Shown here: positions 1 through 13,299 of the stretch, piece after piece
Layout of the letters: every line of letters starts with the position of its first letter
Numbering within the stretch: position 1 is the first letter of the stretch
Assembly (NCBI RefSeq): GCF_004025535.1
Contig: NZ_QJRG01000039.1
Location: 1 to 64,000, forward strand
Direction of reading: 5' to 3'
Origin: Pseudomonas alkylphenolica
Lineage (GTDB): Bacteria > Pseudomonadota > Gammaproteobacteria > Pseudomonadales > Pseudomonadaceae
DNA: 64,000 bases
Notes under the pieces: generated by a model
The model's input: the letters and a program-made list of their open reading frames with translations, nothing else
What the model was told of the DNA's origin: nothing
The model's database searches: none
Program-made: the position numbers and the translations under genes

Positions 1-3000
1 GCCTGTCCGGCTCGCAGCAATTCGAAGGCCCGTCGGCGCAGTACGTCTTCACCGCCACCCTGAGCCATGCCTCCAAAGGCGTGACTACGATCACCACCGA
101 TAAGGGCGTGATCACCATTGCTGACGGTCAGAGCACCGGCACCTTGAAAATTGATGCTGGCAACGGCGAAGACGTCTTGAAGGACGGCAGCTCGTTGACC
201 GCTACGATCATCGGTGTAAACGGTCCTGGCTTTGAAAGTCTGGGCGTTCAAGCGGGCAGTGGCTCCGCGACATCGACGGTGGTAGATACCACCGATACGG
301 TCTTCGCCAAGATCAGCATTGATGGCAACGCCTCTGTCACCGAAGGTGGCGTGCTGACATACAAGGTTGAGTTGGTAGACCAGAACGGTATCGCGGTAAC
401 AGTTCCAAGCGGCAAGTCCGTGACCGTAAGCCTGGATTGGGGCGGTTCGGCCAACACCACCGCTGATATCACCGGCAAACTGCCGACCAGCGTCACCATC
501 AGTGGCGGCAACAGCAGCACTTCGTTCCCCGTTCAGACATTCGACGACACCTTGATTGAAAAAAGCGAGTCGCTGACCGCCACCATCAAGGGTGTGACGG
601 ACACCAACAACGTGTTTGAAAACCTGGCCGTCGGCAGTCAGAACACCGCTACCGGTACGATTCTGGACAATGACAGCGGTCCAACTGTCACCAGTGATAG
701 CGCAACAATCCTGGAAAGCGGTAAGGGCGGTGGCAGCGATGTGGTTCTGGTGCTCGACCGTTCTGGCAGCATGGGGCCGCAGGGCGGCGATCCAGACGGC
801 AGTGGCCCGTACACTACGCGCATCGCCATGCTCAAGGATGCGGTGAGTAACCTCTTTGCGTCCGGCACTGTGCACTCGGTGTTTATTGTCTCGTTTTCAA
901 GCTCCGCGACGTTCCATGATTCGGGCCAAAATGGTGGCTGGTATACCAATCTTGAAGACGCGATGAAAGCGATTGACGCTATCCAGGCGTCTGGTGGGAC
1001 CAACTACAACAATGCACTGACAACCGTGATCGACAAATTCACAGCACCTCCACCTGGTGGCGGCAAGCTGGTGTCTATCTTCATGTCGGATGGCGAACCT
1101 TCTACTGGCGCTTCGGAAACGAAGTGGATCAACTTCCTCGAAGGCAATAAATTCGACGAATCCTTCGCCGTGGGCTTTGGTGGCCTGAGCAACAGCGATA
1201 AGAACTTCCTGGAGCCGATTGCCTGGAAACCAGGCGAGACAGCCGGCTCCATCACCAACGGCTCGAACGACAAAAACGTATTGGTAGTTGAAACCTCGCT
1301 CAGCTCCTTGACCGATGCACTGGTAACCAGCGCCGGCGGCAGCGTGGTGTCGGGTAATGTCACCACCAACGATACCGGGGGTACTGCTGGTTGGGCGGCC
1401 AATGGCTGGAAGATGGATTCGGTGGAGGTCAACGGAACGATTTACAAGTTCGCCAATGCCAACGACGTGAAAACGTTCGACCTTGGCAATCTCGGCAAGC
1501 TGACCTTCAAAGCCGATGGCAGCTATACCTTCACCGGCAAGGACAACTTCGATACCTCAACGTCCCTTCAGACCGTTGTGAAGTACACGGTGAAGGATGC
1601 CAATGGCGAGACCGCCGAGTCGACACTGACGCTGACCGTCAATGATCGTAGCGACCCGATTGCCACTGATGACAACGCGACGGCTACGTTGACGTCCAGA
1701 AGTGTCACAGCAGCAGATACATACACAACACTGGCGAACTTCAACAGTGGCAGTGAAACCAACGCGTGGAAGTTCAACACCACTCCTGTGGACCAGAATC
1801 TCGCGGACCTGTCGAGCAGCTCGGTGCTGAAAGCGAATCTCAGCAGCTGGCAGACCAGTTCGCTCAGCGGCAGCACTTCGGATGCCAGCCGCAGCAGCAG
1901 TGCCTTGGTATTGAAAGACAATAACGGCAGCAGCGATGGCGATGCCCAGGCGCTGACGCCGACTTACAAGACCGGAACAGGTGCTGGCGAAACGTTGTCG
2001 TTCACGACCAGTTTCAGCAATTTCAACAGCGGTGACACCGCACAATGGTCGCTCTACAAGAGCACTGATGGTGGTAACACCTGGTCCTTTGCGCAGAGTG
2101 GGTCTATCTACTCCACGACGAAATCGGTTACTACCGATGCGCTGGATGCCAATAGCCAGTACCGGATTCTCCTGAATGTGCACGATGGCAGCGGCAACTC
2201 CTCCAGCAAGCTGGCGACGGTAACGTTCGACGATTTCACTGCCAAAGTGCCAGGTGCAACGACCATCGAATGGTCAGCAACGCCAGTTTCCGGCTCGGTG
2301 CAAGACAACGACCTCTGGGGCAGCAACGGGGAAACCTCGTCCTTGTCGGTGAAGGTCAACGGCAACTGGACGGAGATCCCGGTAGGCGGCACTACGGTCA
2401 AGGGCAGCTTTGGTGACTTGGCAATCAAGAGCGATGGCTCCTATACCTACACCCCGACCGTCAACAAGGATAACGCCGGCAAAACGGACCAGTTCGAGTA
2501 CAAGGTGACCCAGGCCGATGGAGACTCAGATACGGCACACCTGGACATCACCATCGCTACGACCGGCCCTGGAGCCACCACGACTCAGTCTGCGTCTTAC
2601 TCGCTGCTGGCCAGTGAGGAGCAGGACATCCTCTTCACCCAGAGTGATTCGCACACGGTATACGGCAACCACGGTAATGACCTTCTGGTCGGCACCAATG
2701 CTGCCGACACCTTCGTGTGGAAAGCCGGCGACACCGGTAACGATGTGATTCGGGACTTCAAGCCTGTCGAAGGCGACCGTCTGGACCTGAGTGATCTGCT
2801 TCAGGGCGAGAAGGCCAGCACCATCGACAACTACCTGAAGATCACCACGGTCAACAGTGAGTCGACTCTGCAGGTCAGTTCCGAAGGCAAACTCAACGAC
2901 GCCGGCGGCCTGGCCAATGCCGACGTGACGATCAAGCTGGAAGGCGTCAACTGGGCCAACACCACGATCAACTCGCTGGTGAGCGGCGCCGACCCGACCA

Positions 3001-3026
3001 TCAAGATCGACCACTCCAACAGCTGA
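1..3026 (+). CDS. lapA: LapA-like large RTX adhesin, C-terminal part (5' end outside window)
   Basis: The reading frame is open from base 3 with no start, so this is the C-terminal ~1,007 residues of a larger protein. Counting from a GTG at 81, one sees Calx-beta/Ig-like repeats (about 1-215), then a von Willebrand A domain at about 220-400 with a MIDAS motif (DRSGSMG). VCBS-like domains follow (about 420-530 and 740-835), separated by a Ser/Thr-rich jelly-roll-like section. The end has an RTX-type segment (GNHGNDLLVGTNAADTF) and a glycine/aspartate-rich type I secretion tail ending IKIDHSNS. LapA-family adhesins are exported by LapEBC and held at the surface until LapG cuts an N-terminal di-alanine site, which lies outside this window. 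The adjacent lapD and lapG support the name; the lapBC transporter genes are not downstream. A different LapA-family adhesin such as MapA cannot be excluded without the N-terminus. Confidence 0.85.
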   Translation, partial: LSGSQQFEGPSAQYVFTATLSHASKGVTTITTDKGVITIADGQSTGTLKIDAGNGEDVLKDGSSLTATIIGVNGPGFESLGVQAGSGSATSTVVDTTDTVFAKISIDGNASVTEGGVLTYKVELVDQNGIAVTVPSGKSVTVSLDWGGSANTTADITGKLPTSVTISGGNSSTSFPVQTFDDTLIEKSESLTATIKGVTDTNNVFENLAVGSQNTATGTILDNDSGPTVTSDSATILESGKGGGSDVVLVLDRSGSMGPQGGDPDGSGPYTTRIAMLKDAVSNLFASGTVHSVFIVSFSSSATFHDSGQNGGWYTNLEDAMKAIDAIQASGGTNYNNALTTVIDKFTAPPPGGGKLVSIFMSDGEPSTGASETKWINFLEGNKFDESFAVGFGGLSNSDKNFLEPIAWKPGETAGSITNGSNDKNVLVVETSLSSLTDALVTSAGGSVVSGNVTTNDTGGTAGWAANGWKMDSVEVNGTIYKFANANDVKTFDLGNLGKLTFKADGSYTFTGKDNFDTSTSLQTVVKYTVKDANGETAESTLTLTVNDRSDPIATDDNATATLTSRSVTAADTYTTLANFNSGSETNAWKFNTTPVDQNLADLSSSSVLKANLSSWQTSSLSGSTSDASRSSSALVLKDNNGSSDGDAQALTPTYKTGTGAGETLSFTTSFSNFNSGDTAQWSLYKSTDGGNTWSFAQSGSIYSTTKSVTTDALDANSQYRILLNVHDGSGNSSSKLATVTFDDFTAKVPGATTIEWSATPVSGSVQDNDLWGSNGETSSLSVKVNGNWTEIPVGGTTVKGSFGDLAIKSDGSYTYTPTVNKDNAGKTDQFEYKVTQADGDSDTAHLDITIATTGPGATTTQSASYSLLASEEQDILFTQSDSHTVYGNHGNDLLVGTNAADTFVWKAGDTGNDVIRDFKPVEGDRLDLSDLLQGEKASTIDNYLKITTVNSESTLQVSSEGKLNDAGGLANADVTIKLEGVNWANTTINSLVSGADPTIKIDHSNS

Positions 3027-3041
3027 TGCCCAGCGCCCGCG

Positions 3042-3060
3042 GCAACCCGGTACGGGTTGC
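3042..3060 (+). terminator. Hairpin after the adhesin gene
   Basis: A perfect inverted repeat GCAACCCG/CGGGTTGC with a 3-base loop begins 16 bases after the adhesin stop. It lacks a clear T-run. A second GC-rich imperfect hairpin (TCGCCAGGCGC..) sits at 3109-3131. Together they probably end the long adhesin transcript. Confidence 0.5.
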
Positions 3061-3184
3061 TGTGGGGTTCGGGCTTGGCCTGCGCGACATTCGCACGGCA
3101 TACTCGCTCGCCAGGCGCGCGCCTGGGCGAGCTTGGCCTATGCTGCTGACTGCGGTGATGGACTCACAATTGGAGGGATACCCC

Positions 3185-3526
3185 ATGTACTACGTGCAAC
3201 GCGATGCACAGGGTCGGTTGGCGCGGGTCGAGGCCGCTCCCTATGCCGAATACACGGAGTTGTTGCCGGCCGACCATGCCGAGATTCAGGACTGGTTTGC
3301 CGACAATACCGTCGAGAACAGCCTCAAGCAGCTCAAGCAAAGCGACCTGGACATGATCCGGGTTCTTGAAGACCTGATCGAAGTGCTGACCGCAAAAGGG
3401 GTGATCAGCATCACCGACCTGCCGGCCGGTGCCCAGGCCAAATTGCTCAACCGCTCCACAGCGCGTGAAGCGTTAGGTGGCTTGAGCAACCTGATTGATG
3501 ACAGCGAAGAAAGAGGCCTGATCTAG
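3185..3526 (+). CDS. Small conserved Pseudomonas protein (often misnamed 'tryptophan synthase subunit beta-like')
   Basis: A 113-residue acidic protein. The ATG at 3185 is chosen because GGAGG lies 8-12 bases upstream; the frame stays open further back but there is no ribosome site there. It starts MYYVQRDAQG and has a central helical stretch (LKQLKQSDLDMIRVLEDLIEVL), which may be an amphipathic or coiled-coil helix. There is no signal peptide or membrane segment. Similar Pseudomonas proteins are often labelled tryptophan synthase beta-like, but this is far too short for TrpB and has no PLP site, so that name should not be trusted. It lies between the adhesin and lapD; any part in adhesion is only a guess from position. 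Confidence 0.75.
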   Translation: MYYVQRDAQGRLARVEAAPYAEYTELLPADHAEIQDWFADNTVENSLKQLKQSDLDMIRVLEDLIEVLTAKGVISITDLPAGAQAKLLNRSTAREALGGLSNLIDDSEERGLI

Positions 3527-3542
3527 GCCCAGTCTCTGAAGG

Positions 3543-3568
3543 CCAGCAGGCCCCATGAGGCCTGCTGG
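3543..3568. terminator. Bidirectional hairpin between convergent genes
   Basis: A perfect 10-base-pair stem, CCAGCAGGCC/GGCCTGCTGG, with a 6-base loop sits between the stop at 3526 and the lapD stop at 3576. It is well placed to terminate both convergent transcripts. Confidence 0.65.
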
Positions 3569-3575
3569 TTGCGGT

Positions 3576-5522
3576 TTATCGCCAGGGCGCCGGTTCGCCG
3601 ACCAGCCGGCCCTGCACGCCGTAAATGCCCATTTCGCACAACACCTTGAGTTCACCTTCGGTTTCCACGCGCTCGGCGATCAGTGGCAAATCGATGCTGT
3701 GCGCTGCACGCTGGATCGCTTCGATGAACAGGCGTTTGTGCTGCTCCTGATCGATGGCGCGAATATAGCTGCCGTCGATTTTCAGGTAAGCCAGGCCCAG
3801 ATGGGCCAGGTTGCCGATCATGCTGAAACGCCCACCAAAACGTTGCAGGCTCAGGCTGAAGCCCAGGGCGTGCAAGCGTCGGGTCAGCTGTTCGAGGGCG
3901 GCCTGATCGGGCAGCTGTTCTTCACCGATTTCCAGGGTCAGGCGCGGCCCCAGCGCCGTGTATTGACCCAGTAGCTCATAGACCCGTTGCAGTGCCTTGG
4001 GGTCGGCCAGCGTCGCAGCCGACAGGTTCAGGGCCAGGGCTTCGGTGTGGTTGAGCAGATGCTTGAGTACTTGCTCGAGCATCAGGATGTCCAGCCGCGT
4101 CGACCAGCCAAAACGCTCCAGCCAAGGCAGAAAGCGCCCGGCCGCTACGGCCTGGCCCTGATCGTCGAGCAAACGTGAAATGACCTTGTAGTGCAGGACC
4201 TTCTCCGGGGCATCGCAGGCCACCACCGGCTGGAAAAACAGCTGGAAGCGCCCATGCTCCAGGGCCTCGTCGAGCAGGCGATGCCAGGTATGGTGGGTTT
4301 CACCGCTCTGCGGCGCCGTACCTTGTTCAAAGCACACCCAGCCTGGTTCCACCTGGGCTTCGGCGCGGGCCAGCGCTTCATCGGCCAGCTTCAGCAGTAC
4401 CTGGGGGGCATCGCCCGGGCTGTAGGGCGCCATGCCGATACAGGCCACCGGGGTTACATCGGTAGCGCCGGTTTCGGCCAGGCTCTGCAGGGTGCCCTCA
4501 AGGGCCTGGGCCAGTTGAATCGCTTCCTCATGCACCAGACCGGGTGCCAGTACGGCGAACTCGCCGCCACGGCTGCGGGTGATCAGGTTGTTGGTTTCCG
4601 GGTAATTGGCGCAAGTACGCTGCAGCTGCTGGCCGACTGCCTGAAGGAGTTGATCGGTATGCTGGCCACCCAGTCGCTGGTTAAGCCCGGCCAGGTCCTT
4701 GACCCGCAGCAGCAACAGGTAACCCGGCCGGGCTTCTTCCATGTTGCTGACTTGGGCATTGAGCTGCATTTCGAAATAGCGGCGGTTGGCCAAGCCGGTC
4801 AGGCTGTCCTGATACGACTCGACCCGCAGCTTTTCACTGCGTTCCGCCTGCTCTTTGAACAACGCCTTGAGCTTCTCGACCATCTGGTTCATGGCCTGCA
4901 CCACACGGCGCAGTTCGGGGGTGCGCGGCAGGTCGGGCAGGCTGAGGAATTCACGGCGGGCAATGGCGTGCGACTGCTCCACCATGTAGTCCAGGGGCTT
5001 GAGTTGCCGACGCAGCAGCAGTGCGCCGAGCACGGCGCTCAAGGCACCACACAGCAGCAACCAGCCCAGGCTGCCCAGGGCGCTCTGCCAGAGCTTGGCC
5101 AGGGCAAACATGGGATGGCTGACCACTTCGACACGGGCAGCCTGTTGCCAGCCGCGGCTGACGATAGCATCGCCGCCAGCAGCCTCAAGACCGATCAGGC
5201 GCGTGAACCAGGCGGGTACGCCGTTGGCGTCTGGCTCGGCGTGACGCTCCACCAGCACCGCGTTGGAGCCCGAATCGATGACCTTGATACTCGAGTAATA
5301 ACCGCTGTCGAAAATCGAACTGACCATCAGTTCGACCATCGCCGGATCGTCGATGTTCGGCGTCAGCGACAATGCCAGGGCAGTGGCTGCGTCCTGGGCG
5401 TGCGAGCGCAGCTGATTGACGTACTGGCTACGCGAGCTTTCCAGGCTGACCATGAAGCTGCCACTGAAGGCGACTACCAGGAACAGGCAGATGGCAAGCA
5501 GCAATTGTTTGAACAGTGACAT
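3576..5522 (-). CDS. lapD: LapD, c-di-GMP receptor controlling adhesin release
   Basis: Inner-membrane c-di-GMP sensor of 648 residues. When it binds c-di-GMP it holds LapG in the periplasm, so LapA stays on the surface. Membrane segments lie at about 5-27 and 150-172 and flank a periplasmic LapD/MoxY-type output domain; then come a HAMP segment, a GGDEF-like domain and an EAL-like domain. Both catalytic motifs are degenerate: the cyclase site reads RGGEF and the EAL position reads KVI. This fits a receptor rather than an enzyme and matches known LapD. It starts 10 bases after lapG ends, so the two form a lapG-lapD operon. Confidence 0.95.
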   Translation of the reverse strand: MSLFKQLLLAICLFLVVAFSGSFMVSLESSRSQYVNQLRSHAQDAATALALSLTPNIDDPAMVELMVSSIFDSGYYSSIKVIDSGSNAVLVERHAEPDANGVPAWFTRLIGLEAAGGDAIVSRGWQQAARVEVVSHPMFALAKLWQSALGSLGWLLLCGALSAVLGALLLRRQLKPLDYMVEQSHAIARREFLSLPDLPRTPELRRVVQAMNQMVEKLKALFKEQAERSEKLRVESYQDSLTGLANRRYFEMQLNAQVSNMEEARPGYLLLLRVKDLAGLNQRLGGQHTDQLLQAVGQQLQRTCANYPETNNLITRSRGGEFAVLAPGLVHEEAIQLAQALEGTLQSLAETGATDVTPVACIGMAPYSPGDAPQVLLKLADEALARAEAQVEPGWVCFEQGTAPQSGETHHTWHRLLDEALEHGRFQLFFQPVVACDAPEKVLHYKVISRLLDDQGQAVAAGRFLPWLERFGWSTRLDILMLEQVLKHLLNHTEALALNLSAATLADPKALQRVYELLGQYTALGPRLTLEIGEEQLPDQAALEQLTRRLHALGFSLSLQRFGGRFSMIGNLAHLGLAYLKIDGSYIRAIDQEQHKRLFIEAIQRAAHSIDLPLIAERVETEGELKVLCEMGIYGVQGRLVGEPAPWR

Positions 5523-5532
5523 CTGTGCTCCT

Positions 5533-6225
5533 TTAGTAAACCGGTTCGGCCGGGAAACCTTCGGCCTGCATCTTTTTCAACAGGTCCTGCCAGCGCGACA
5601 AGCGTTTGGTGTCGCCGACCTTCTTGTTGCCCGTCGCACCGGTCAGCCACAGACCTTCACCGTTGAAGGAATAGACTGGCAGCAGATCGGTGCGTTCACT
5701 GGCGGGCTTGATGGCATCCATCAGGCTGTCCAGAACCAGGGGCATGGCATTGGGCGTTGCGTAGTAAGTCAGGACCATGTGTGCGCGGTTCTGGCGCAGT
5801 GCCTTGACGTATGTGATGCGCAGCTTTTCCGCCGGCACGCCCATGCGCCGCAGGCTGAAGTACTTGGCGATAGCATAGTCTTCACAGTCGCCGGCACCCT
5901 TGATCAGTGCCTGGATCGGGGTTGCCCAGTAATCCGTCTCACGCCACAGGTCGATGTCTTCGACATAGCGCAGCTGGTGGTTGAAGAACTGGTTGACCCG
6001 CTTGAGCTGCTCGGCTTCGCTGTCCTGTTTCTGGGTGCTCAGCAGGTTCTGCCAGGCATCGATACGGCCTTGTCCTGCACCCAGTGCCCCGTACAGTGAC
6101 TGGGCCTTGCGGCTGATCTGGGAAAAGTCCCAGTCGGCGTGCAGGCTGCCCAGCAACAGGCAGCCGAGCATAACGGCAAGGCTCAGCCGGCGCAGGGTCA
6201 GGTGAACAGTCCAGCGTCTCGTCAC
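5533..6225 (-). CDS. lapG: LapG, periplasmic cysteine protease
   Basis: A bacterial transglutaminase-like cysteine protease (DUF920/peptidase C93) of 230 residues that cuts the N-terminus of LapA-type adhesins when c-di-GMP is low. The frame is open back to 6354, but the GTG at 6225 is preferred: it has AGG upstream and places a clean signal peptide at the start (MTRRWTVHLTLRRLSLAV.. ending near SLHA). The catalytic residues are visible: Cys in KGAGDCEDYA, His in NRAHMVLTYY and Asp in LVLDSL. Known LapG needs calcium, and the Asp/Glu residues near the active site are consistent with this. It is the first gene of the lapG-lapD operon. Confidence 0.93.
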   Translation of the reverse strand: MTRRWTVHLTLRRLSLAVMLGCLLLGSLHADWDFSQISRKAQSLYGALGAGQGRIDAWQNLLSTQKQDSEAEQLKRVNQFFNHQLRYVEDIDLWRETDYWATPIQALIKGAGDCEDYAIAKYFSLRRMGVPAEKLRITYVKALRQNRAHMVLTYYATPNAMPLVLDSLMDAIKPASERTDLLPVYSFNGEGLWLTGATGNKKVGDTKRLSRWQDLLKKMQAEGFPAEPVY

Positions 6226-6527
6226 TACGAAAACCTGCGCAGACCTATGGAAAAGCACCGATGGTGCGGCCTTGCCCCTAAAAAAACAATGGCACCTTAC
6301 AATCACGGTGGCATCAGTCTGACCACCCTCATCGCGGGCGCTTGCCCACCACATCGGAGTGGCTTCCCTTGGAGAAAAACTTCATTCACGATAGCAATTA
6401 TCGCCGCAGCCATTGCCATCCGCCCTGAGCGGGGCCCTTCCGAGCGGTTTGACAAGCACCCACCCCCTGACTACGGTGATTGGATCCAATTCCCGCCGTG
6501 TTCCGACGACAAAGGGCAGAGTAAAGC
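6226..6527. other. Divergent intergenic region between lapG and a GntR regulator gene
   Basis: About 300 bases with no convincing gene. It carries the promoters for lapG (leftward) and for the GntR gene (rightward). The only clear structure is the 12-base palindrome at 6479-6490 with promoter-like boxes beside it, listed separately. Confidence 0.6.
6449..6490 (+). promoter_or_regulatory. Promoter with VanR-type palindromic operator for the GntR gene
   Basis: A consensus -35 TTGACA at 6449-6454 and a weak -10 (TACGGT, 6472-6477; 17-base spacing) are followed by the perfect palindrome ATTGGATCCAAT at 6479-6490. This is the same sequence as the half-operator of the Caulobacter vanillate regulator VanR, also a GntR/FCD protein. 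It lies where a transcript would start, 38 bases before the start codon, so autorepression is the simplest reading. Confidence 0.6.
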
Positions 6528-7220
6528 GTGACCCAAAAATCCAGACCATTGAGCGAAATACTGGGCAGCGAGCAAGTGCCGCCGCACCTGGCTCGGAGTG
6601 TGATTGAAGAGCGGTTGCGCAGCGCTATTCTCGATGGTCGCCTGCCCCCGGGCATGGCGCTGCGTCAGCAAGAGCTGGCGTCGTTGTTCGGGGTCAGCCG
6701 CATGCCGGTGCGCGAAGCCTTGCGCCAACTCGAAACGCAATCGTTGCTGCAGGTAGTCGCCCACAAGGGTGCGGTGGTGGCGCCATTGATCGGCGAAGAT
6801 GCCATGGACTCCTATGCTTTGCGGGTGCTACTCGAAAGCGAGGCATTGCGCCAGTCGATTCCCCGTCTTGATGCCGATGACATTGCCCTGGCGCGCAGCT
6901 ACATCGCCCAGCTGGAGAACGAAACCCGGCATGCCGAAATCGGTCGTCTGAACCGGCTGTTTCACATGAGCCTGTACAGCAAGGCAACGAACAAGAAGCT
7001 GTTGCACCTGATTGAAATCGAGCTCAATGAAGAGGAGCGCTTCTTGCGTTTTCACCTGTCGTCGATGGGCCTTGGCAAATTGACGCAGGATGACCACAAC
7101 GCTCTGGTTGATGCTGCCAACGACAAGGCCGTCGAGGATGCCGTCAGGGTACTCGAGCGTCACTTGAGCAAGGCCGAAAAAACCATCCGGGCCTATCTGG
7201 ACAGTCGTCCGGCCGAGTAG
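6528..7220 (+). CDS. GntR family regulator, FCD (FadR/VanR) subfamily
   Basis: A 230-residue DNA-binding regulator starting at GTG. The winged helix is at about 22-78 (LASLFGVSRMPVREALRQLE), followed by an all-helical FCD ligand-binding domain. Putative metal/ligand residues include H146 in LNRLFHMS, H190 in DDH and H212 in ERHLSKA. FCD regulators usually sense small carboxylic acids. The ligand here is unknown and no catabolic gene is adjacent; lapG diverges on one side and an esterase gene lies 140 bases downstream. A palindrome identical to a VanR operator unit sits in its own promoter, so it may belong to the VanR branch, but no vanAB genes are in the window. Confidence 0.88.
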   Translation: MTQKSRPLSEILGSEQVPPHLARSVIEERLRSAILDGRLPPGMALRQQELASLFGVSRMPVREALRQLETQSLLQVVAHKGAVVAPLIGEDAMDSYALRVLLESEALRQSIPRLDADDIALARSYIAQLENETRHAEIGRLNRLFHMSLYSKATNKKLLHLIEIELNEEERFLRFHLSSMGLGKLTQDDHNALVDAANDKAVEDAVRVLERHLSKAEKTIRAYLDSRPAE

Positions 7221-7274
7221 GTCTGCCCCGCCAGGGGCGCTGGTGGTGTGATCTTTTGGAGTTATTTGGTTATT

Positions 7275-7322
7275 AATAAATAGCTTCTTATTCCTTTACG
7301 TTCATTTTCATGCCCCTATACT
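7275..7322 (+). promoter_or_regulatory. Promoter and AT-rich sulfur-type element before the esterase gene
   Basis: An AT-rich element AATAAATAGCTTCTTATTCC (7275-7294) lies just upstream of a -10-like TATACT (7317-7322), with TTTACG (7295-7300) as a possible -35. Closely similar elements occur before other sulfur genes in this window, which suggests a shared LysR-type (CysB-like) activator site. AGGAGG precedes the start codon at 7360. Confidence 0.4.
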
Positions 7323-7359
7323 TGGCCTCAAGCACGCAAACCCAGCAGGAGGCGTCCCC

Positions 7360-7941
7360 ATGCGCAATGATTCGATCCGTTACCTGATTGTGCCGGGCTG
7401 GCAAGGTTCGCCAGAGGATCATTGGCAGAGTCACTGGCAGCAGGTGTTGCCTAACAGCGCCCGGGTCGAACAGGCCGACTGGTTGACGCCGCAACGCCAG
7501 GACTGGGTCGCTGCCCTGGAAAGCGCCGTGGCGGCTGATGAGTCGCCGGTGATATTGATTGCCCACAGTCTGGGCTGCATCACCGTCGCCCATTGGGCAG
7601 CACAAGCCAGTGTCAGCCTGCTGCGTCGCGTCCGCGGTGCCTTGCTGGTAGCCCCGGCCGACGTCGAGCGCCCGACCTGTGCACCGGCCTTGCAAAACTT
7701 CGCGCCCATCGCACAGCAGTTGCTGCCGTTTCCAAGCCAGGTGGTCAGCTCCGATAACGACCCGGCAGTAAGCGCTCCGCGTGCGATGCAGCTGGCACGT
7801 GCCTGGGGCGCCGAAGTGGGCTTTCTCGCGGGCGCCGGGCATATCAACGTCAAGTCCGGGCACCGCCGCTGGGAGCAGGGCTTCGCTTACCTGTACCGCC
7901 TGCAGAGCCGCCTGGAACAGCACGCGCTTCGCCGCGCCTGA
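7360..7941 (+). CDS. RBBP9/YdeN family serine esterase (alpha/beta hydrolase)
   Basis: A small cytoplasmic alpha/beta hydrolase of 193 residues, typical for the RBBP9/YdeN family. The nucleophile is Ser70 in AHSLG, an Asp is offered by SDNDPAV and a His by GAGHINV. The early VPGWQGSPEDHW motif is diagnostic for the family. The start at 7360 has a strong AGGAGG ribosome site. The gene is followed after 63 bases by a truncated SfnR-like sigma-54 activator gene and appears to share its promoter, so it may act in sulfur-starvation metabolism. The natural substrate of this family is not established. Confidence 0.85.
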   Translation: MRNDSIRYLIVPGWQGSPEDHWQSHWQQVLPNSARVEQADWLTPQRQDWVAALESAVAADESPVILIAHSLGCITVAHWAAQASVSLLRRVRGALLVAPADVERPTCAPALQNFAPIAQQLLPFPSQVVSSDNDPAVSAPRAMQLARAWGAEVGFLAGAGHINVKSGHRRWEQGFAYLYRLQSRLEQHALRRA

Positions 7942-8004
7942 CGCCCAGGCAAGACCTTAATCAATCCAGCGCCCGGCCCCTGATGCTGCGGGCGGGAGTT
8001 TTCT

Positions 8005-8946
8005 ATGAGTCATCACGACACGTTCGGCCAGCCATTGCTGACCTTTCCTGAACTGGACAAAAGCCCGCTGAGCATCCGCGCCAAGGCGCTGGTATTCGTC
8101 GACCCGCGTTCACAGCAATTGCGCGAGGAGCTGGAGCTGTTGGCGCCATTGGCGTTGCCGGTGCTGATTCGCGGTGAGACCGGTACTGGCAAGGAATTGC
8201 TGGCACGGCAGATCCACCGTGCCAGTGATCGCAGTGGCCTGTTCGTCTCGGTCAACTGCGCTGCCATCAGCCCGACCTATGCCGATGCTGAACTGTTCGG
8301 CTACAGCGCCGGTGCCCACAACGGCGCGCCCAGCAGCCGGGCAGGGTGGTTCGGCTCGGCCAATGGCGGCACGTTGTACCTGGATGAAATCGCCGACTTG
8401 CCGTTGTCGATTCAGGGCAAATTGCTAGCCGCCCTGGAGAACCGTGAAGTGACGCGGGTGGGCGCCCAGCAACCCAACCCCGTAGACGTGCGCCTGGTGG
8501 CGGCATCGAGCATTGATCTGGGCGATGCCGTGAGTGTCGGCAAATTCAACGAGCGCCTTTACCACTATCTGCGCGAGGGCCAGTTGCAACTGCCTGCCTT
8601 GCGCGAGCGGGTCGGCGACATCCTGCCGTTGGCCGAATATTTCGTGGGTATCTACAGCCCGCGGCTGAACCTTGCAGTGCCACTGATCAGCGAGGCCGCT
8701 CAGCGGGTGCTGGAGCTGTATAGCTGGCCGGGCAACACCCGCGAGCTGGAGAACGTCATTCACTTTGCCCTGCTGGTCAGCAGCGGCGAGGAAATAAAGC
8801 CCCACCACCTGAACCTGGCAACGCCACTGCAGACACTGCAGAGCCAGCTGGATCAGCTGTGCCAGCACGCTGTGGCGCAGGAGCGCGATGCCTTGAAAGG
8901 CTTGCTGGAGCAGGCGCTGTTGCGTTTAACGCAAGGCGCAGCCTGA
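8005..8946 (+). CDS. SfnR-like sigma-54 activator AAA+ protein, degenerate GAFTGA and no DNA-binding domain
   Basis: A 313-residue enhancer-binding-protein core with no receiver domain, most like SfnR (regulator of sulfone/sulfonate use). Walker A is GETGTGKE (57-64), Walker B is LYLDEIADL (about 124-132) and sensor II is WPGNTRELEN (241-250). Two features are odd. The sigma-54 contact loop, normally GAFTGA, reads GAHNGA (103-108). The protein stops at ..LLRLTQGAA, just where the Fis-type helix-turn-helix of relatives would begin; neither other frame downstream encodes one. It may be a decaying regulator, or one that modulates another activator by forming mixed oligomers. It sits between an esterase gene and a MetQ-like gene in a sulfur context. 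Confidence 0.85.
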   Translation: MSHHDTFGQPLLTFPELDKSPLSIRAKALVFVDPRSQQLREELELLAPLALPVLIRGETGTGKELLARQIHRASDRSGLFVSVNCAAISPTYADAELFGYSAGAHNGAPSSRAGWFGSANGGTLYLDEIADLPLSIQGKLLAALENREVTRVGAQQPNPVDVRLVAASSIDLGDAVSVGKFNERLYHYLREGQLQLPALRERVGDILPLAEYFVGIYSPRLNLAVPLISEAAQRVLELYSWPGNTRELENVIHFALLVSSGEEIKPHHLNLATPLQTLQSQLDQLCQHAVAQERDALKGLLEQALLRLTQGAA

Positions 8947-8983
8947 GGCTATGCACGAGGCGCATCGGCTTTATGGTTAAAAT

Positions 8984-9003
8984 GGAATAAGCAGCTAAAT
9001 AAA
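8984..9003. promoter_or_regulatory. AT-rich element upstream of metQ-like gene
   Basis: GGAATAAGCAGCTAAATAAA lies about 115 bases before the metQ-like start. Read on the other strand it closely matches the element at 7275-7294 (15 of 19 positions by eye). It is a candidate binding site for a sulfur-responsive LysR regulator such as CysB. Confidence 0.35.
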
Positions 9004-9118
9004 AGATATTGTTCCGGCATAAAAAATCTAGGTATTGTCCGCTCCAAGCCAGCTAGCAATCTGCTGGCAACCTAATTTGCCGTCGACCGATGGCCCAGTA
9101 TTCGAATAAGGACTGCAC

Positions 9119-9904
9119 ATGAAAAAGGCTCTGTTGTTCACTGCTCTGGCGGCCGCTCTGTCGGTTGCAGGTTTCGCCCAGGCGGGCGAGAAACTGGTGG
9201 TTGCCGCCACCCCTGTACCGCACGCCGAAATCCTCGAGCTGATCAAACCGACCCTGGCCAAAGAAGGTGTGGACCTGGAGATCAAGGTATTCACCGACTA
9301 TGTGCAGCCTAACGTACAGGTCGATCAGAAGCGTCTGGACGCCAACTACTTCCAGACCCTGCCGTACCTGAAGAACTTCAACGAAGGTAAAGGGACCCAC
9401 CTGGAAACCGTGATCGGCGTGCACGTCGAACCGTTCGGTGGTTACTCGAAGAAGGTCAAGAGCCTGAGCGAGCTGAAAGACGGCGCCACCGTTGCCATTC
9501 CTAACGAAGGCAGCAACAGCGGCCGTGCTCTGCTGCTGCTGCAGAAGGCTGGCCTGATCACCCTGAAGGATCCGAAGAACGCCCTGGCCACCCCGAAAGA
9601 CATCGCCGAGAACCCGAAGAAGCTGAAGTTCCGCGAGCTTGAGTCGGCCATGCTGCCACGTGTGCTGGACCAAGTAGATCTGGACATGATCAACACCAAC
9701 TACGCTCTGGAAGCGGGTCTGAACCCGGCCAAGGACGCACTGGTCATCGAAGGTGCCGACTCGCCGTACGTCAACTTCCTGGTTGCCCGTCCGGACAACA
9801 AGGACAGCGACGCCATCCAGAAGCTGGCCAAGGCCCTGACCAGCCCTGAAGTGAAAGCCTTCATCGAGAAAAAGTACAGCGGCGCGGTTCTGCCGGCGTT
9901 CTGA
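9119..9904 (+). CDS. metQ: MetQ/NlpA family periplasmic binding protein
   Basis: A 261-residue substrate-binding protein of the NlpA family, which feeds D/L-methionine (and related sulfur compounds) to MetNI importers. The signal peptide ends at ..AGFAQA and there is no lipobox cysteine, so it should be a free periplasmic protein rather than the lipoprotein found in E. coli. Family motifs include TPVPHAEILE, DYVQPNVQV and NYFQTLPYL. No MetN or MetI gene is adjacent; the ABC genes that follow belong to a different (polar amino-acid) family. It may share the MetNI encoded at 52.5-54.3 kb. A strong terminator follows the gene. Confidence 0.9.
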   Translation: MKKALLFTALAAALSVAGFAQAGEKLVVAATPVPHAEILELIKPTLAKEGVDLEIKVFTDYVQPNVQVDQKRLDANYFQTLPYLKNFNEGKGTHLETVIGVHVEPFGGYSKKVKSLSELKDGATVAIPNEGSNSGRALLLLQKAGLITLKDPKNALATPKDIAENPKKLKFRELESAMLPRVLDQVDLDMINTNYALEAGLNPAKDALVIEGADSPYVNFLVARPDNKDSDAIQKLAKALTSPEVKAFIEKKYSGAVLPAF

Positions 9905-10069: not shown

Positions 10070-10345
10070 CGTAGTTTTCTTCCATGAAAGTGAGGGAAGT
10101 GGCAGTCGTTGGATAGCCGTTGTGACGGAAAGATCCCGGCACACTCAAGGATTTCTCAGGTTAGCTGTTTGGGTGATATCAATATGCAATAAAGGTATTT
10201 AAATAAATATTCTTATACCTTTAAAGTCTTAGTCATTGTGCTCACCCGCACTGACAACTCCAGTTTAGAGCGGCCCGCTTATCCTCGGGCCGAGCTGAGA
10301 TCCTGCCATGTCGTACTGTCACCGCTTGCCGTCGAGGGCTTTTCC
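10070..10345. promoter_or_regulatory. Promoter region of the amino-acid ABC importer with a 9-base dyad
   Basis: The gap upstream of the importer holds a perfect dyad TAAAGGTAT (10190-10198) and ATACCTTTA (10215-10223) around a 16-base AT-rich spacer that contains AAATAAATATTCTTATACC. This resembles the element at 7275-7294 and is a good candidate operator for a LysR-type sulfur or amino-acid regulator. No further gene is seen here. Confidence 0.45.
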
Positions 10346-11011
10346 ATGAGCTTCGACGTTGCGTTCATCCTAAGCACTTTGCCCGCATTTCTCAAAGCTG
10401 TAGGGGTCACCTTGCAGGTGGGCCTGATCGCCATTGTCACCTCGCTACTGGTGGCGCTGGTCAATGCGGCGATTCTGGTCTATCGCACACCCTACCTGCA
10501 GCGTGTGGTGCAGCTCTATGTGGAGCTGGCGCGCAATACACCGCTGCTCATCCAGTTGTTCTTCGTCTACTTCGCCTTGCCGAGCCTGGGCCTGAAGATT
10601 TCCGGCTTTGCCGCGGCGATCATCACCATGACGTTTCTCGGCGGCGCCTACCTGACTGAAGTGCTGCGAGCAGGTGTCGAGGCGGTACCCCGGGCACAGC
10701 TGGAGTCGGGACGTTCGATCGGGCTGTCCGAGGCGCAGTTGCTGTGGCATGTGATCCTGCCGCAAGCCGGCTTGCTCAGCTTGCCGTCCCTGTTCGCCAA
10801 TTTTGTCTTTCTGCTCAAAGAGACCACGGTGGTCTCGGCGGTGGCGGTGCCAGAGATTCTCTACACCACCAAAAGCTACATCGCTCTTTATTACAAAACC
10901 TACGAGATGCTCGCGGTGCTCACGCTGATCTGCGTGCTGCTGTTCCTGCCCCTGTCGCTGTTGCTCCGGTACCTGGAAGGGAGGCTGCAACATGGCCAGT
11001 TCGGGTCTTGA
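10346..11011 (+). CDS. Polar amino-acid ABC importer, permease 1
   Basis: A 221-residue HisM/GltJ-type inner-membrane permease with several hydrophobic helices and the EAA-type loop around EAVPRAQLESGRSIGLSEAQ. The ATG at 10346 is chosen because GAGGG sits upstream; the frame is open back to 10238 but without a ribosome site. It overlaps the second permease gene by 20 bases, and the ATPase and binding-protein genes follow directly, forming a complete four-gene operon. The substrate is an amino acid; the upstream dyad and neighbouring sulfur genes hint at a sulfur-containing one, which is inference. Confidence 0.9.
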   Translation: MSFDVAFILSTLPAFLKAVGVTLQVGLIAIVTSLLVALVNAAILVYRTPYLQRVVQLYVELARNTPLLIQLFFVYFALPSLGLKISGFAAAIITMTFLGGAYLTEVLRAGVEAVPRAQLESGRSIGLSEAQLLWHVILPQAGLLSLPSLFANFVFLLKETTVVSAVAVPEILYTTKSYIALYYKTYEMLAVLTLICVLLFLPLSLLLRYLEGRLQHGQFGS

Positions 11012-11651
11012 GCTATTGCTGGTGTCGTTGCCGCAACTGGGCAGGGGCGCCGCGCAGACCTTGGCGATTTCGGCGCTGGGGATTGTTTTCAGCACCCTGG
11101 GCGGCGTGGCGTATGGGGTGTTGGCGAGCCTGAACCGTCGCGGCTTGAACCTGGTGCTACGCGTATACCTGGAGTTGTTCAGGGCGATTCCGGTGCTGGT
11201 CTGGCTTTACCTGCTGTTCTTCGGCTTGCCGATCTTCTTTGCCCTGAGCATTCCCAGCTTCTGGTGCGCCGTACTGGTGCTGTCGTTGTGGGGCAGCAGC
11301 GAAGTCGGTGAAGTGGTACGTGGCGCCTTGCGTTCGTTGCCACTCGGGCAGCGTGAGGCCGGGCTCTCCATCGGCCTGTCTGCCTGGCAGCTATACGGCT
11401 ACGTGTTGTTGCCGCAAGCCCTTAAACGCATGACCCCGCCGACCATCAACATTTACACGCGGATCATCAAGACCAGTTCGCTGGCCGTGCTGATCGGGGT
11501 GGTCGATGTCATCAAGGTCGGCCAGCAGATCATCGAGCGCACGTACGAGTCGGTGCTGATCTACGGGGTGCTGTTTCTGTTTTTCTTCTTTATCTGCTAC
11601 CCGCTCTCGGCCGCCTCGCGCGCCCTTGAGCGCCGCTGGACACACGCATGA
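10992..11651 (+). CDS. Polar amino-acid ABC importer, permease 2
   Basis: A 219-residue HisQ/HisM-type permease that pairs with the gene before it. It is highly hydrophobic, with the EAA loop at GALRSLPLGQREAGLSIGLS and a run of phenylalanines near the C-terminus (LFLFFFFICY). The start codon lies inside the end of permease 1 and the stop overlaps the ATPase start by 4 bases, indicating translational coupling. Two distinct permeases with one ATPase is the usual arrangement for this family. Confidence 0.9.
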   Translation: MASSGLELLLVSLPQLGRGAAQTLAISALGIVFSTLGGVAYGVLASLNRRGLNLVLRVYLELFRAIPVLVWLYLLFFGLPIFFALSIPSFWCAVLVLSLWGSSEVGEVVRGALRSLPLGQREAGLSIGLSAWQLYGYVLLPQALKRMTPPTINIYTRIIKTSSLAVLIGVVDVIKVGQQIIERTYESVLIYGVLFLFFFFICYPLSAASRALERRWTHA

Positions 11652-12424
11652 GCGCATTGATCGAGTTCGAGGGCTTCAACAAATTCTTCGGCGACCAGCA
11701 GGTACTGAAGGCTGTCGACCTGCAGGTACGGCGCGGCGAAGTGGTGGTGATCCTGGGGCCGAGCGGCTGCGGCAAGAGCACTTTGCTACGTTGCCTCAAC
11801 GGCCTGGAGAGCGCCGACGGCGGCCATTTGCGCCTGGGCGGTGAAGAATTGCTCGCGCCGGGTACGGACTGGCGTCAGGTGCGTCAGCGAGTGGGCATGG
11901 TGTTCCAGAGTTATCACCTGTTCGGCCACATGAGCGTGCTCGACAACCTGCTGCTGGGGCCGCTCAAGGTGCAAAAGCGCCAGCGCCATGAAGCCCTGGC
12001 CCAGGCGCAAGCCTTGCTGGCCCGTGTCGGCTTGCTGGACAAACGCGATGCCTATCCACGCCAGTTATCCGGTGGCCAGCAACAGCGCATCGCGATTGTC
12101 CGCTCGTTGTGCATGAACCCGGAAGTGATGCTGTTTGACGAGGTGACCGCAGCGCTGGACCCGGAGATGGTCAAGGAAGTGCTGCAAGTGATCCAGGGCC
12201 TGGCCCGTGACGGCATGACCCTGCTTATCGTTACGCATGAAATGGCCTTCGCCCGCGCGGTGGCCGACCGAATCGTGTTCATGGACGCCGGCAGGATCCT
12301 TGAACAAAACGACCCCGAGAGCTTCTTTTCGAACCCGCAGACCGCACGCGCGCAGCAGTTTCTGGAGAAATTCTCCTACATGGAAAGCCTGCCTAAAAAA
12401 ATGCCTGCGAAGGAGCTGTCATGA
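11648..12424 (+). CDS. Polar amino-acid ABC importer, ATP-binding protein
   Basis: A 258-residue GlnQ/HisP-type ATPase. Walker A is GPSGCGKST (37-45), the signature is LSGGQQQR and Walker B is VMLFDEVTAALDP. The proline common after the catalytic glutamate (DEPTSALD) is replaced by Val here, a known variant among amino-acid importers. The H-loop is in IVTHEMAFAR. It overlaps its neighbours by 4 bases on both sides, so the four genes are tightly coupled. Confidence 0.93.
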   Translation: MSALIEFEGFNKFFGDQQVLKAVDLQVRRGEVVVILGPSGCGKSTLLRCLNGLESADGGHLRLGGEELLAPGTDWRQVRQRVGMVFQSYHLFGHMSVLDNLLLGPLKVQKRQRHEALAQAQALLARVGLLDKRDAYPRQLSGGQQQRIAIVRSLCMNPEVMLFDEVTAALDPEMVKEVLQVIQGLARDGMTLLIVTHEMAFARAVADRIVFMDAGRILEQNDPESFFSNPQTARAQQFLEKFSYMESLPKKMPAKELS

Positions 12425-13299
12425 AAACTGCCAAGACCTCGAAACTGTTGTTGTCGCTGTTCAGCCTTGCCCTGTTGGCGGGGTGCAACAAGGCTGAAGA
12501 ACCGAACAAACCCGCGTCCGCAGGTGCATCGCCGGCGACCAGCTACCTGGAAACCATCAAGGCCCGGGACAAGCTGATTGTCGGCGTGTTCACCGACAAG
12601 CCACCGTTCGGTTTTGTGGACGAGAGTGGCCGCTATGTCGGGTTCGATACCGATATCGGGCGTCAGTTTGCCAAATCACTGCTGGGTGACGAGAACAAGG
12701 TCGAGTTCGTTGCGGTTGAACCGGCCAGCCGTATTCCTTTCCTGCAAAGCGACAAGGTTGACCTGATTCTGGCCAACATGACCGTGACCCCGGAGCGCAA
12801 GGAAGCGGTGGAGTTCACCAACCCGAACCTGCGTGTTGCCGTGCAGGCGCTGGTGCCTGAAGGCAGTAGCGTAAAGCATCTGGATGACCTGTCCGACAAG
12901 ACCACCATCGTTACTACCGGCACCACCGCCGATATCTGGCTGACGAAAAACCATCCGGACTGGAAGCTGCTCAAGTTCGAAAAGAACTCCGAGTCGCTGC
13001 AGGCGTTGGCCAATGGCCGGGGTGATGCCTATGCCCAGGACAACCTGATCCTGTTCAGCTGGTCGAAGCAGAACCCTGGCTACCGCGTGCTGGAAGAGAA
13101 ACTGGGCGAAGAAGCGCCGATTGCACCGGCAGTGAAGAAGGGCAACATCGAGCTGCGTGACTGGGTTAACGCCGAGCTGGCGCGCCTGGGTGAGCAGAAG
13201 TACCTGCTCAAGCTGTATGACCAATATGTGCGCAAGGAACTGAGCGAAGACACCAAGCCTGAGAGCGTGATCGTCGAAGGTGGCAAGTGGCAGGGGTGA
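12421..13299 (+). CDS. Amino-acid ABC importer, lipoprotein substrate-binding protein
   Basis: A 292-residue family 3 solute-binding protein. A lipobox LLAGC places the lipid-modified Cys at residue 22. Family motifs include KLIVGVFTDKPPFGFVDESG and the arginine-containing NMTVTPERKEAVEFTNP. It is the last gene of the importer operon and is followed by a strong hairpin. The ligand cannot be read from sequence; relatives bind polar amino acids including cystine. Confidence 0.88.
   Translation: MKTAKTSKLLLSLFSLALLAGCNKAEEPNKPASAGASPATSYLETIKARDKLIVGVFTDKPPFGFVDESGRYVGFDTDIGRQFAKSLLGDENKVEFVAVEPASRIPFLQSDKVDLILANMTVTPERKEAVEFTNPNLRVAVQALVPEGSSVKHLDDLSDKTTIVTTGTTADIWLTKNHPDWKLLKFEKNSESLQALANGRGDAYAQDNLILFSWSKQNPGYRVLEEKLGEEAPIAPAVKKGNIELRDWVNAELARLGEQKYLLKLYDQYVRKELSEDTKPESVIVEGGKWQG

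Follow-up and report, generated by a model that had tools for sequence, protein, structure and literature searches.

Among the bEBP homologues in which the GAFTGA motif is defective, those that have been characterised are known to bind DNA themselves. Such GAFTGA-defective proteins, including the sigma-70-dependent TyrR, DhaR and HupR, are reviewed in PMC3162934, where the sections drawn on here also state that about 4% of activators have no DNA-binding domain, no signal domain, or neither. FleT is described, in the part of PMC7175178 used here, as the only known bEBP without both a regulatory and a DNA-binding domain; in Rhodobacter (Cereibacter) sphaeroides it serves flagellar regulation as an activator that partners FleQ (PMC7277832, in part), with which it works in a complex (PMC7175178, PMC7277832 and PMC4145663, in part). 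Excerpts from PMC4145663 and PMC9542535 further state that paralogous bEBPs mix in one oligomer, i.e., HrpR/HrpS and VnfA.

Here we describe a bEBP-derived protein, which we call EBPx, encoded in the window (the whole stretch of 64,000 nucleotides that was analysed). We regard the case as about evenly balanced that EBPx is an ATP-binding pseudo-activator of sulfur acquisition, working through protein contacts and not through sigma-54 remodelling. Our literature search, with subscription journals mostly outside its scope, found no description of this family, and the supplementary list of PMC3162934 may include members. In P. donghuensis, a gene named "sfnR" (BV82_3639, "AAA domain family protein") falls with other sulfur genes in the portion of PMC10256816 consulted, and could encode either SfnR or EBPx.

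The EBPx gene and protein

The interval 8005–8946 (+) is a genuine open reading frame of 313 aa, as the preliminary description of this DNA had held in calling it a clean open frame. The features that we place on it are as follows.

8005..8946, + strand: EBPx, apparently an SfnR-derived pseudo-activator of 313 aa (open reading frame, Pfam domains, orthologues)
8062..8112, + strand: N-terminal motif SPLSIRAKALVFVDPRS, mostly invariant in EBPx orthologues and partly common to SfnR (SIRAxAxVFxDxxS)
8173..8196, + strand: Walker A, GETGTGKE, with Lys63 (in 135/135 orthologues)
8311..8328, + strand: L1 loop, GAHNGA, where sigma-54 activators have GAFTGA (GAFTGA in 0/135 orthologues; 52 loop variants)
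8374..8391, + strand: Walker B, LYLDEI, with Glu128 (in 135/135 orthologues)
8503..8511, + strand: sensor I, with Ser169 replacing the usual Asn/His (Ser in 135/135 orthologues)
8545..8571, + strand: arginine-finger segment, FNERLYHYL (FREDLYYRL-like in others), both Arg lost
8731..8748, + strand: sensor II, GNTREL (GNTRELENV in the window), with Arg246 (in 135/135 orthologues)
8818..8943, + strand: variable C-terminal tail, standing where a Fis-type HTH would be (tail length and faster evolution)

Pfam identifies Sigma54_activat (PF00158, E 1.9e-53) and AAA_lid_14 (E 5.6e-19) in this protein, the domain and lid by which we judge bEBP membership, and the same holds for 50/50 members of EBPx alignment A2. 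Translation of 8005–8946 bears out the earlier reading of the loop as GAHNGA. The same reading had taken the AAA+ core to be intact, which holds for Walker A, Walker B and sensor II and fails for both arginine fingers and the sensor I Asn/His: the finger positions are Asn182 and Tyr188, the Asp beside the first finger is replaced by Arg184, and sensor I is Ser169.

The nearest named EBPx orthologue is that of P. alkylphenolica (98% identity). In the genome from which the window comes (6.17 Mb, with 26 strong Sigma54_activat matches), the closest paralogue is an SfnR-type activator of 366 aa with 48% identity, GAFTGA and an HTH-like end; the genome thus encodes both EBPx and SfnR, on different contigs. 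A FleQ-like c-di-GMP site in EBPx was considered and ruled out, since the LFRS motif is missing before Walker A, where a protein of the same genome that we take to be FleQ-like has it; we assume here that LFRS marks FleQ-type, c-di-GMP-responsive bEBPs. A structure prediction made from 52 close sequences had a mean pLDDT of 55.7 and was left out of the argument.

Residues kept and lost across EBPx orthologues

Loop, finger and tail features were taken from 160 orthologue rows (135 distinct), drawn from part of the 274 EBPx-bearing Pseudomonas genomes and from other genera, and were compared with 30 SfnR rows and 32 other bEBP rows (24 from the window's own genome and eight SfnR-like ones from elsewhere). 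These 62 rows represent 61 distinct proteins; the SfnR of the window's genome sits in both comparison sets, and so occurs twice. We take EBPx positions 182 and 188 to correspond to PspF R162 and R168, and the sensor I and Asn84 assignments were likewise made from general motif knowledge.

The residues of the ATP site itself are kept, with Lys63, Glu128 and Arg246 each present in all 135 distinct orthologues and Asp127 in 134 of them, while the counterpart of the glutamate-switch Asn, Asn84, is Asn in 106 and Ser in 29. The arginine fingers are gone: position 182 is Arg in 0/135, being occupied by His, Asn, Asp, Leu, Ser or Tyr, and position 188 is Tyr in 134/135 and Arg in one, whereas both finger arginines are present in 30/30 SfnR rows and 32/32 other bEBP rows. 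At position 184, where others have Asp, 127/135 EBPx proteins have Arg. One finger Arg and the Asp are both retained in a single exception, which is among the most divergent EBPx rows. The replacement of the sensor I Asn/His by Ser is universal in EBPx (135/135), and Ser also occurs there in 1/32 other bEBP rows. For the second finger, PMC7175178, in the part seen, reports that NtrC1 R299 (equivalent to PspF R168) contacts the gamma-phosphate in trans.

The loop has diverged into 52 different forms, none of them GAFTGA, with Phe left in 2/135 and Thr in 6/135. These forms are far from GAFTGA in 120 of the 135 orthologues and near-canonical in 15 (GAYSGS in nine, GSYTGS in three, and GSFTGS, GSYSGS and GAYSGA in one each). 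The variants GAYTGS, GSYTGA and GAFTGS are present among the 32 other bEBP rows, the first two of them in what seem to be normal activators, and loss of sigma-54 contact is less certain for the 15 EBPx orthologues with near-canonical loops; these 15 have lost the arginine fingers and the HTH as well. We also observed four orthologues (L106, L122, L126 and L132) that retain Phe/Tyr-Thr in the loop (GSYTGS, GSFTGS), with fingers and HTH lost.

Loop positions 104–108 have a mean entropy of 1.65 bits, against 0.57 for the EBPx core, 0.00 for the SfnR loop and 0.47 for that of other bEBPs. At the same time, 129 of the 252 EBPx core positions are conserved at 95% or more, and 19 positions are fixed in EBPx yet held by 10% or fewer of the 62 other bEBP rows. 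Judged from these alignments, constraint is relaxed at the would-be sigma-54 contact, with new constraint elsewhere in the protein. The loss of features goes beyond chance, because the odd features are common to 135 distinct orthologues.

The missing HTH and the C-terminal tail

Alignment with SfnR showed that EBPx ends at the point where the SfnR tail runs into its HTH, in agreement with the first description, in which the C-terminus was said to stop where the Fis HTH should begin. EBPx orthologues are 273–329 aa in whole length. The tail past NTRELE is 24–80 aa long in the 151 of 160 EBPx rows having this motif, vs. 123–125 aa past NIRELE in the 30 SfnR rows, and the LGxSRN-type HTH motif occurs in 0/160 EBPx rows vs. 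29/30 SfnR rows. Pfam is unsuited as a test for this HTH, as at E 0.001 it shows none in SfnR either. Inspection by eye of the three forward frames of 8947–9118 and the three reverse frames of 8801–9118 found no HTH, which discards an HTH hidden in another frame beside the EBPx stop and upholds the earlier remark that other frames past the stop do not encode the missing helix.

Domain scan, alignment and frame inspection found no DNA-binding domain at either end of EBPx, and EBPx could therefore reach a promoter only via another protein. This weighs against a regulator working with sigma-70, as the GAFTGA-defective TyrR, DhaR and HupR are reported to do (PMC3162934): the loss of GAFTGA in EBPx is the same kind of change, but a DNA-binding domain was found at neither end, and we consider such a role very unlikely.

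Origin of EBPx within the SfnR group

In a tree of 70 proteins, rooted at the midpoint, the 33 EBPx rows form one clade with support 100/100, and the sister to this clade (100/95) is a pair of SfnR-like proteins, L146 and L229, both of which retain the two finger arginines and an HTH-like end and read GAFSGA in the loop. The group uniting SfnR with EBPx is split from 23 other bEBPs of the window's genome with support 100/99. On this tree EBPx is placed as having arisen inside the SfnR group of sigma-54 activators; within the rows sampled, HTH and fingers disappear on the branch that leads to all EBPx. In the sister pair, GAFSGA has Ser in place of the Thr of the sigma-54 loop.

Distribution and selection

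Within Pseudomonas, 274 of 298 genomes carry EBPx, i.e., 273 with a best match below 1e-100, plus one (G096) in which the copy is truncated by a contig end. Best E-values in this table were judged by eye at a cut of 1e-100, with the weakest accepted EBPx at 3.5e-113, and some of the EBPx-less Pseudomonas genomes are incomplete (73–90%). The G096 case shows that some absences in the table may reflect assembly gaps.

In the wider family, orthologue-profile matches at E <= 1e-100 occur in 60/119 genomes and 12/19 genera, although the match in one of these 60 genomes (G444) is the SfnR-like L229, not EBPx. At the level of the order, matches at E <= 1e-70 occur in 5/145 genomes, the sole one from outside the family carrying complete SfnR-like proteins.

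The EBPx core has dN/dS values of 0.026–0.115 (11 pairs), and the tail 0.16–0.58 (nine pairs where it is defined). Three orthologues from genomes without SfnR are as constrained as the others compared, with core values of 0.026–0.049. It had been proposed that purifying selection on the ATPase core with consistent loss of the HTH would speak for a real role, and this is the pattern that the orthologues show, for GAFTGA as well as for the HTH. A normal GAFTGA and HTH in orthologues would have pointed to recent local decay; either is found in 0/135.

An early-stage pseudogene, its frame open by accident, had been the second of the two readings first offered, and the key functional motifs missing in the single window sequence do favour it. 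The orthologues in about 274/298 Pseudomonas genomes, the matches in half of the family genomes surveyed, the low core dN/dS and the invariant ATP-site residues contradict this reading, and we rule out a pseudogene or recent decay as an explanation that has next to no probability left. As judged from these comparisons, EBPx is an old, strongly conserved Pseudomonas protein, not a local decay.

Co-occurrence with SfnR

With G096 moved to its proper class, 204 of the 298 genomes have both EBPx and SfnR, 70 EBPx only, three SfnR only and 21 neither. The two genes co-occur above chance (Fisher p 1e-8, calculated on the uncorrected 203/70/4/21), an excess for which common descent could by itself account. 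SfnR is thus missing from about 70 of the 274 EBPx-bearing Pseudomonas genomes, and in 20 of these 70, searched again with a profile at 1e-65, no other SfnR-family protein was found, the next matches being longer activators with open frames of 446–538 aa. A second set comprised 30 genomes, of which 27 represented 11 genera of the family other than the window's; leaving out G444 as EBPx-less gave 29 EBPx-bearing genomes, 26 from other genera and three from the window's genus (one of which, G113, is also in the first table). In 16 of these 29 there is no SfnR match at 1e-85.

These counts bear on the other reading first offered, a dominant-negative partner that enters SfnR rings and, having no sigma-54 loop, fingers or DNA binding of its own, poisons them and dampens sfn promoters. 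Such a partner would be in keeping with the descent of EBPx from the SfnR group and its retention of the SfnR-type N-terminal motif, with its place among sulfur genes, and with the joint presence of both genes in the 204 genomes, the window's own included. Against it stand the EBPx-bearing genomes without SfnR in both sets (about 70/274 and 16/29), the continued constraint on the three EBPx genes from SfnR-less genomes, and the location of EBPx and SfnR on separate contigs in the window's genome. Since about 70 genomes have EBPx without SfnR, and the three such orthologues compared are constrained, SfnR is not needed for EBPx retention, and EBPx must have a constant partner other than SfnR. 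Dampening of SfnR may therefore apply where SfnR exists and fails as a general role, and overall we think it unlikely.

We are equally doubtful of a positive partner of the FleT kind, in which EBPx would join SfnR or another complete bEBP in a hetero-oligomer and alter promoter choice or strength. FleT of Rhodobacter works complexed with FleQ, and EBPx has the same bare architecture; but EBPx, without either finger and mostly without a workable sigma-54 loop, would give no help to hydrolysis at the neighbouring site, and no universally co-occurring activator was identified, co-occurrence having been examined for SfnR only.

Neighbourhood of EBPx

The genes next to EBPx in the window are as follows.

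7360..7941, + strand: YdeN/RBBP9-like serine hydrolase, probable operon partner (Pfam Ser_hydrolase, E 3.3e-69; directly upstream of EBPx)
9119..9904, + strand: MetQ/NlpA-type solute-binding protein (Pfam Lipoprotein_9, E 2e-102; downstream of EBPx)
10340..13299, + strand: polar-amino-acid-type ABC transporter genes (best NCBIfam models of glutamine, cystine and ectoine types, all below cut-off)

We use YdeN and RBBP9 as names for the Pfam Ser_hydrolase family. The gap of 63 bp between the two genes suggests an operon in which EBPx follows YdeN. A YdeN-like gene lies immediately 5′ of EBPx in 80/80 named loci (79 Pseudomonas, with P. batumici counted twice, and one Paucimonas MAG), at a gap of 9–157 bp, and a MetQ relative is present in 79 of these 80; relatives of the permeases and binding protein of 10340..13299 are present in 42–43 of them. 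Among 19 distant loci, YdeN is next to EBPx in 14. The remaining five are all from one genus (g3), where a YdeN relative is present away from EBPx in 12/12 genomes searched.

Sulfur-type neighbours in the lineages examined include a CysA-type ATPase, a sulfate-binding protein, MetN, MetQ, a Met/Cys PLP enzyme and TonB-ExbB-ExbD. For example, TonB-ExbB-ExbD precedes YdeN in 53/99 loci (with the family calls for the TonB receptor, TonB and ExbB made at locus L062), and MetQ and a Met/Cys PLP enzyme neighbour EBPx in genus g3. An ABC ATPase is encoded upstream in many loci; the five such proteins scanned are of CysA type by their best NCBIfam model, pass TIGR00968 (sulfate subfamily) and miss the CysA equivalog cut-off. 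At one locus, L221, a sulfate-binding protein, a permease and a CysA-type ATPase are all near EBPx. Some loci also have neighbours without a plain sulfur link, i.e., a GGDEF protein, an OprD porin, a 2-hydroxyacid dehydrogenase, a BCCT transporter and cytochrome bd.

In the window, LapD- and LapG-like genes and a GntR regulator stand in place of TonB/ExbBD, an arrangement that among the 80 loci is matched by L061 alone. The end of a LapA-like adhesin gene and the LapD- and LapG-like genes occupy 81–6354 and adjoin the sulfur locus; the Lap names are our own assignments. With LapG and LapA relatives in 1/80 named loci (L061; flanks of up to 8 kb, some shorter), a link between EBPx and the LapD/LapG-like genes is local only and was discarded, and TonB-ExbBD seems to have been displaced by a local rearrangement that put Lap genes beside the sulfur locus.

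On genomic grounds, the YdeN-like hydrolase is the leading candidate for a partner of EBPx. No EBPx genome without YdeN was seen among those examined for YdeN, these genomes not being independent of one another. YdeN is also found in EBPx-less genomes, in 12/24 below 1e-80 and 14/24 below 1e-20, and because it occurs without EBPx and the two genes lie apart in genus g3, the link may be one of co-regulation only.

Promoter and leader

An upstream sulfur-type promoter had also been described for this gene, a claim that our search does not sustain. The -24/-12 pattern, allowing one mismatch at most, has five matches in the window vs. 7.0 expected, and the only nearby match is inside the upstream gene; a sigma-54 promoter directly upstream of EBPx is thus at chance level and was rejected. 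The one sigma-70-like site in 6300–9200 (0.7 expected by chance) is at 7295–7322, before the YdeN gene. Between YdeN and EBPx lies one further feature.

7970..7998, + strand: 5′ leader of EBPx, with a potential GC hairpin at 7970–7994 abutting the ribosome-binding GGGAG at 7994–7998 (sequence)

Immediately 5′ of the EBPx start, GGCGGGAG is found in 100 of the 110 Pseudomonas loci compared (redundant ones kept), and an AACGCC arm further upstream, which with GGCGGGAG can form a hairpin, is also present in 59 of the 110. In many loci outside the genus the hairpin is missing or unclear. Under a shuffling control that keeps relatedness, the covariation score of the leader was reached by 4/500 shuffles, and the pair changes on both sides by 27/500; folding gave a mean z of -1.0, with 16% of 55 leaders below -2. 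Rfam gave no match in 6400–9200 up to E 5, and a model of the leader found one significant site in the genome, i.e., this leader (150 of 3,696 first-look candidates scored). Covariation and folding thus lend weak to moderate support to a structured RNA.

A proposed role for EBPx

By sequence, EBPx keeps the cis half of the ATP site, i.e., Walker A, Walker B and sensor II. It has lost the residue normally found at sensor I, the DNA-binding domain, GAFTGA, and both of the arginine fingers that would serve its neighbour. Such a protein would bind ATP and would form no self-sufficient remodelling ring; its usual loop, in most species, could not touch sigma-54, and sigma-54 promoters would not be opened by it. 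EBPx may then be a nucleotide-dependent regulatory subunit that acts through protein contacts in the response to sulfur limitation. Where a complete activator exists, EBPx could cap its ring or mix into it, because it would accept an arginine finger but donate none.

As to what EBPx contacts, another activator is a candidate beside the YdeN-like hydrolase. We give roughly half of the weight to a partner other than SfnR or to a role outside transcription. Heteromers with SfnR-type activators, and heteromers with some other activator, we each regard as unlikely, to about the same degree, and the remaining options for partner or role are more improbable still. A more specific form of the preferred reading, which we put forward tentatively and hold to be less probable than the general one, is that EBPx is an ATP-gated switch off the sigma-54 pathway, controlling sulfur acquisition by binding the YdeN/RBBP9-like hydrolase or a transporter component. 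If true, a sigma-54 activator would have turned into a pseudo-activator with a new, non-promoter output in the Pseudomonadaceae.

EBPx is both common and old, and the loss of its parts was selective, in that the ATP site retains its receiving side and has lost its donating one. To our knowledge, few pseudo-enzymes derived from AAA+ activators are known. Pfam scores EBPx far above the Sigma54_activat cut-off, so genome annotations and regulon counts probably include it among the activators, or under the name SfnR, in the majority of Pseudomonas genomes. EBPx would offer a clean test of the capacities left to a ring ATPase when the adjacent subunit hydrolyses no ATP. It also hints at an unexplored layer of control over sulfur scavenging in Pseudomonas.

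Comparison with known systems

The closest relatives of EBPx by tree are the SfnR proteins, with which it has in common the absence of an N-terminal receiver domain, the SIRAxAxVFxDxxS start and the sulfur setting. SfnR differs in having GAFTGA and both fingers (30/30) and an LGxSRN-type HTH (29/30), where EBPx has none of these save for one finger in 1/135. TyrR, HupR, DhaR, VpsR and other GAFTGA-defective bEBP homologues have, like EBPx, lost the sigma-54 contact motif, but the characterised ones are DNA-binding, whereas no DNA-binding domain can be recognised in EBPx. A precedent for heteromers of paralogous bEBPs is provided by HrpR/HrpS and VnfA; all three proteins carry DNA-binding domains, that of HrpR and HrpS being an HTH, and EBPx carries none.

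FleT is alike in being a bare AAA+ bEBP with neither a regulatory nor a DNA-binding domain, a likeness of domain architecture, and it differs in being the activator partner of FleQ in a flagellar system. On its sequence features, EBPx would be the second example of the bare, FleT-type architecture, and a further reduced one.
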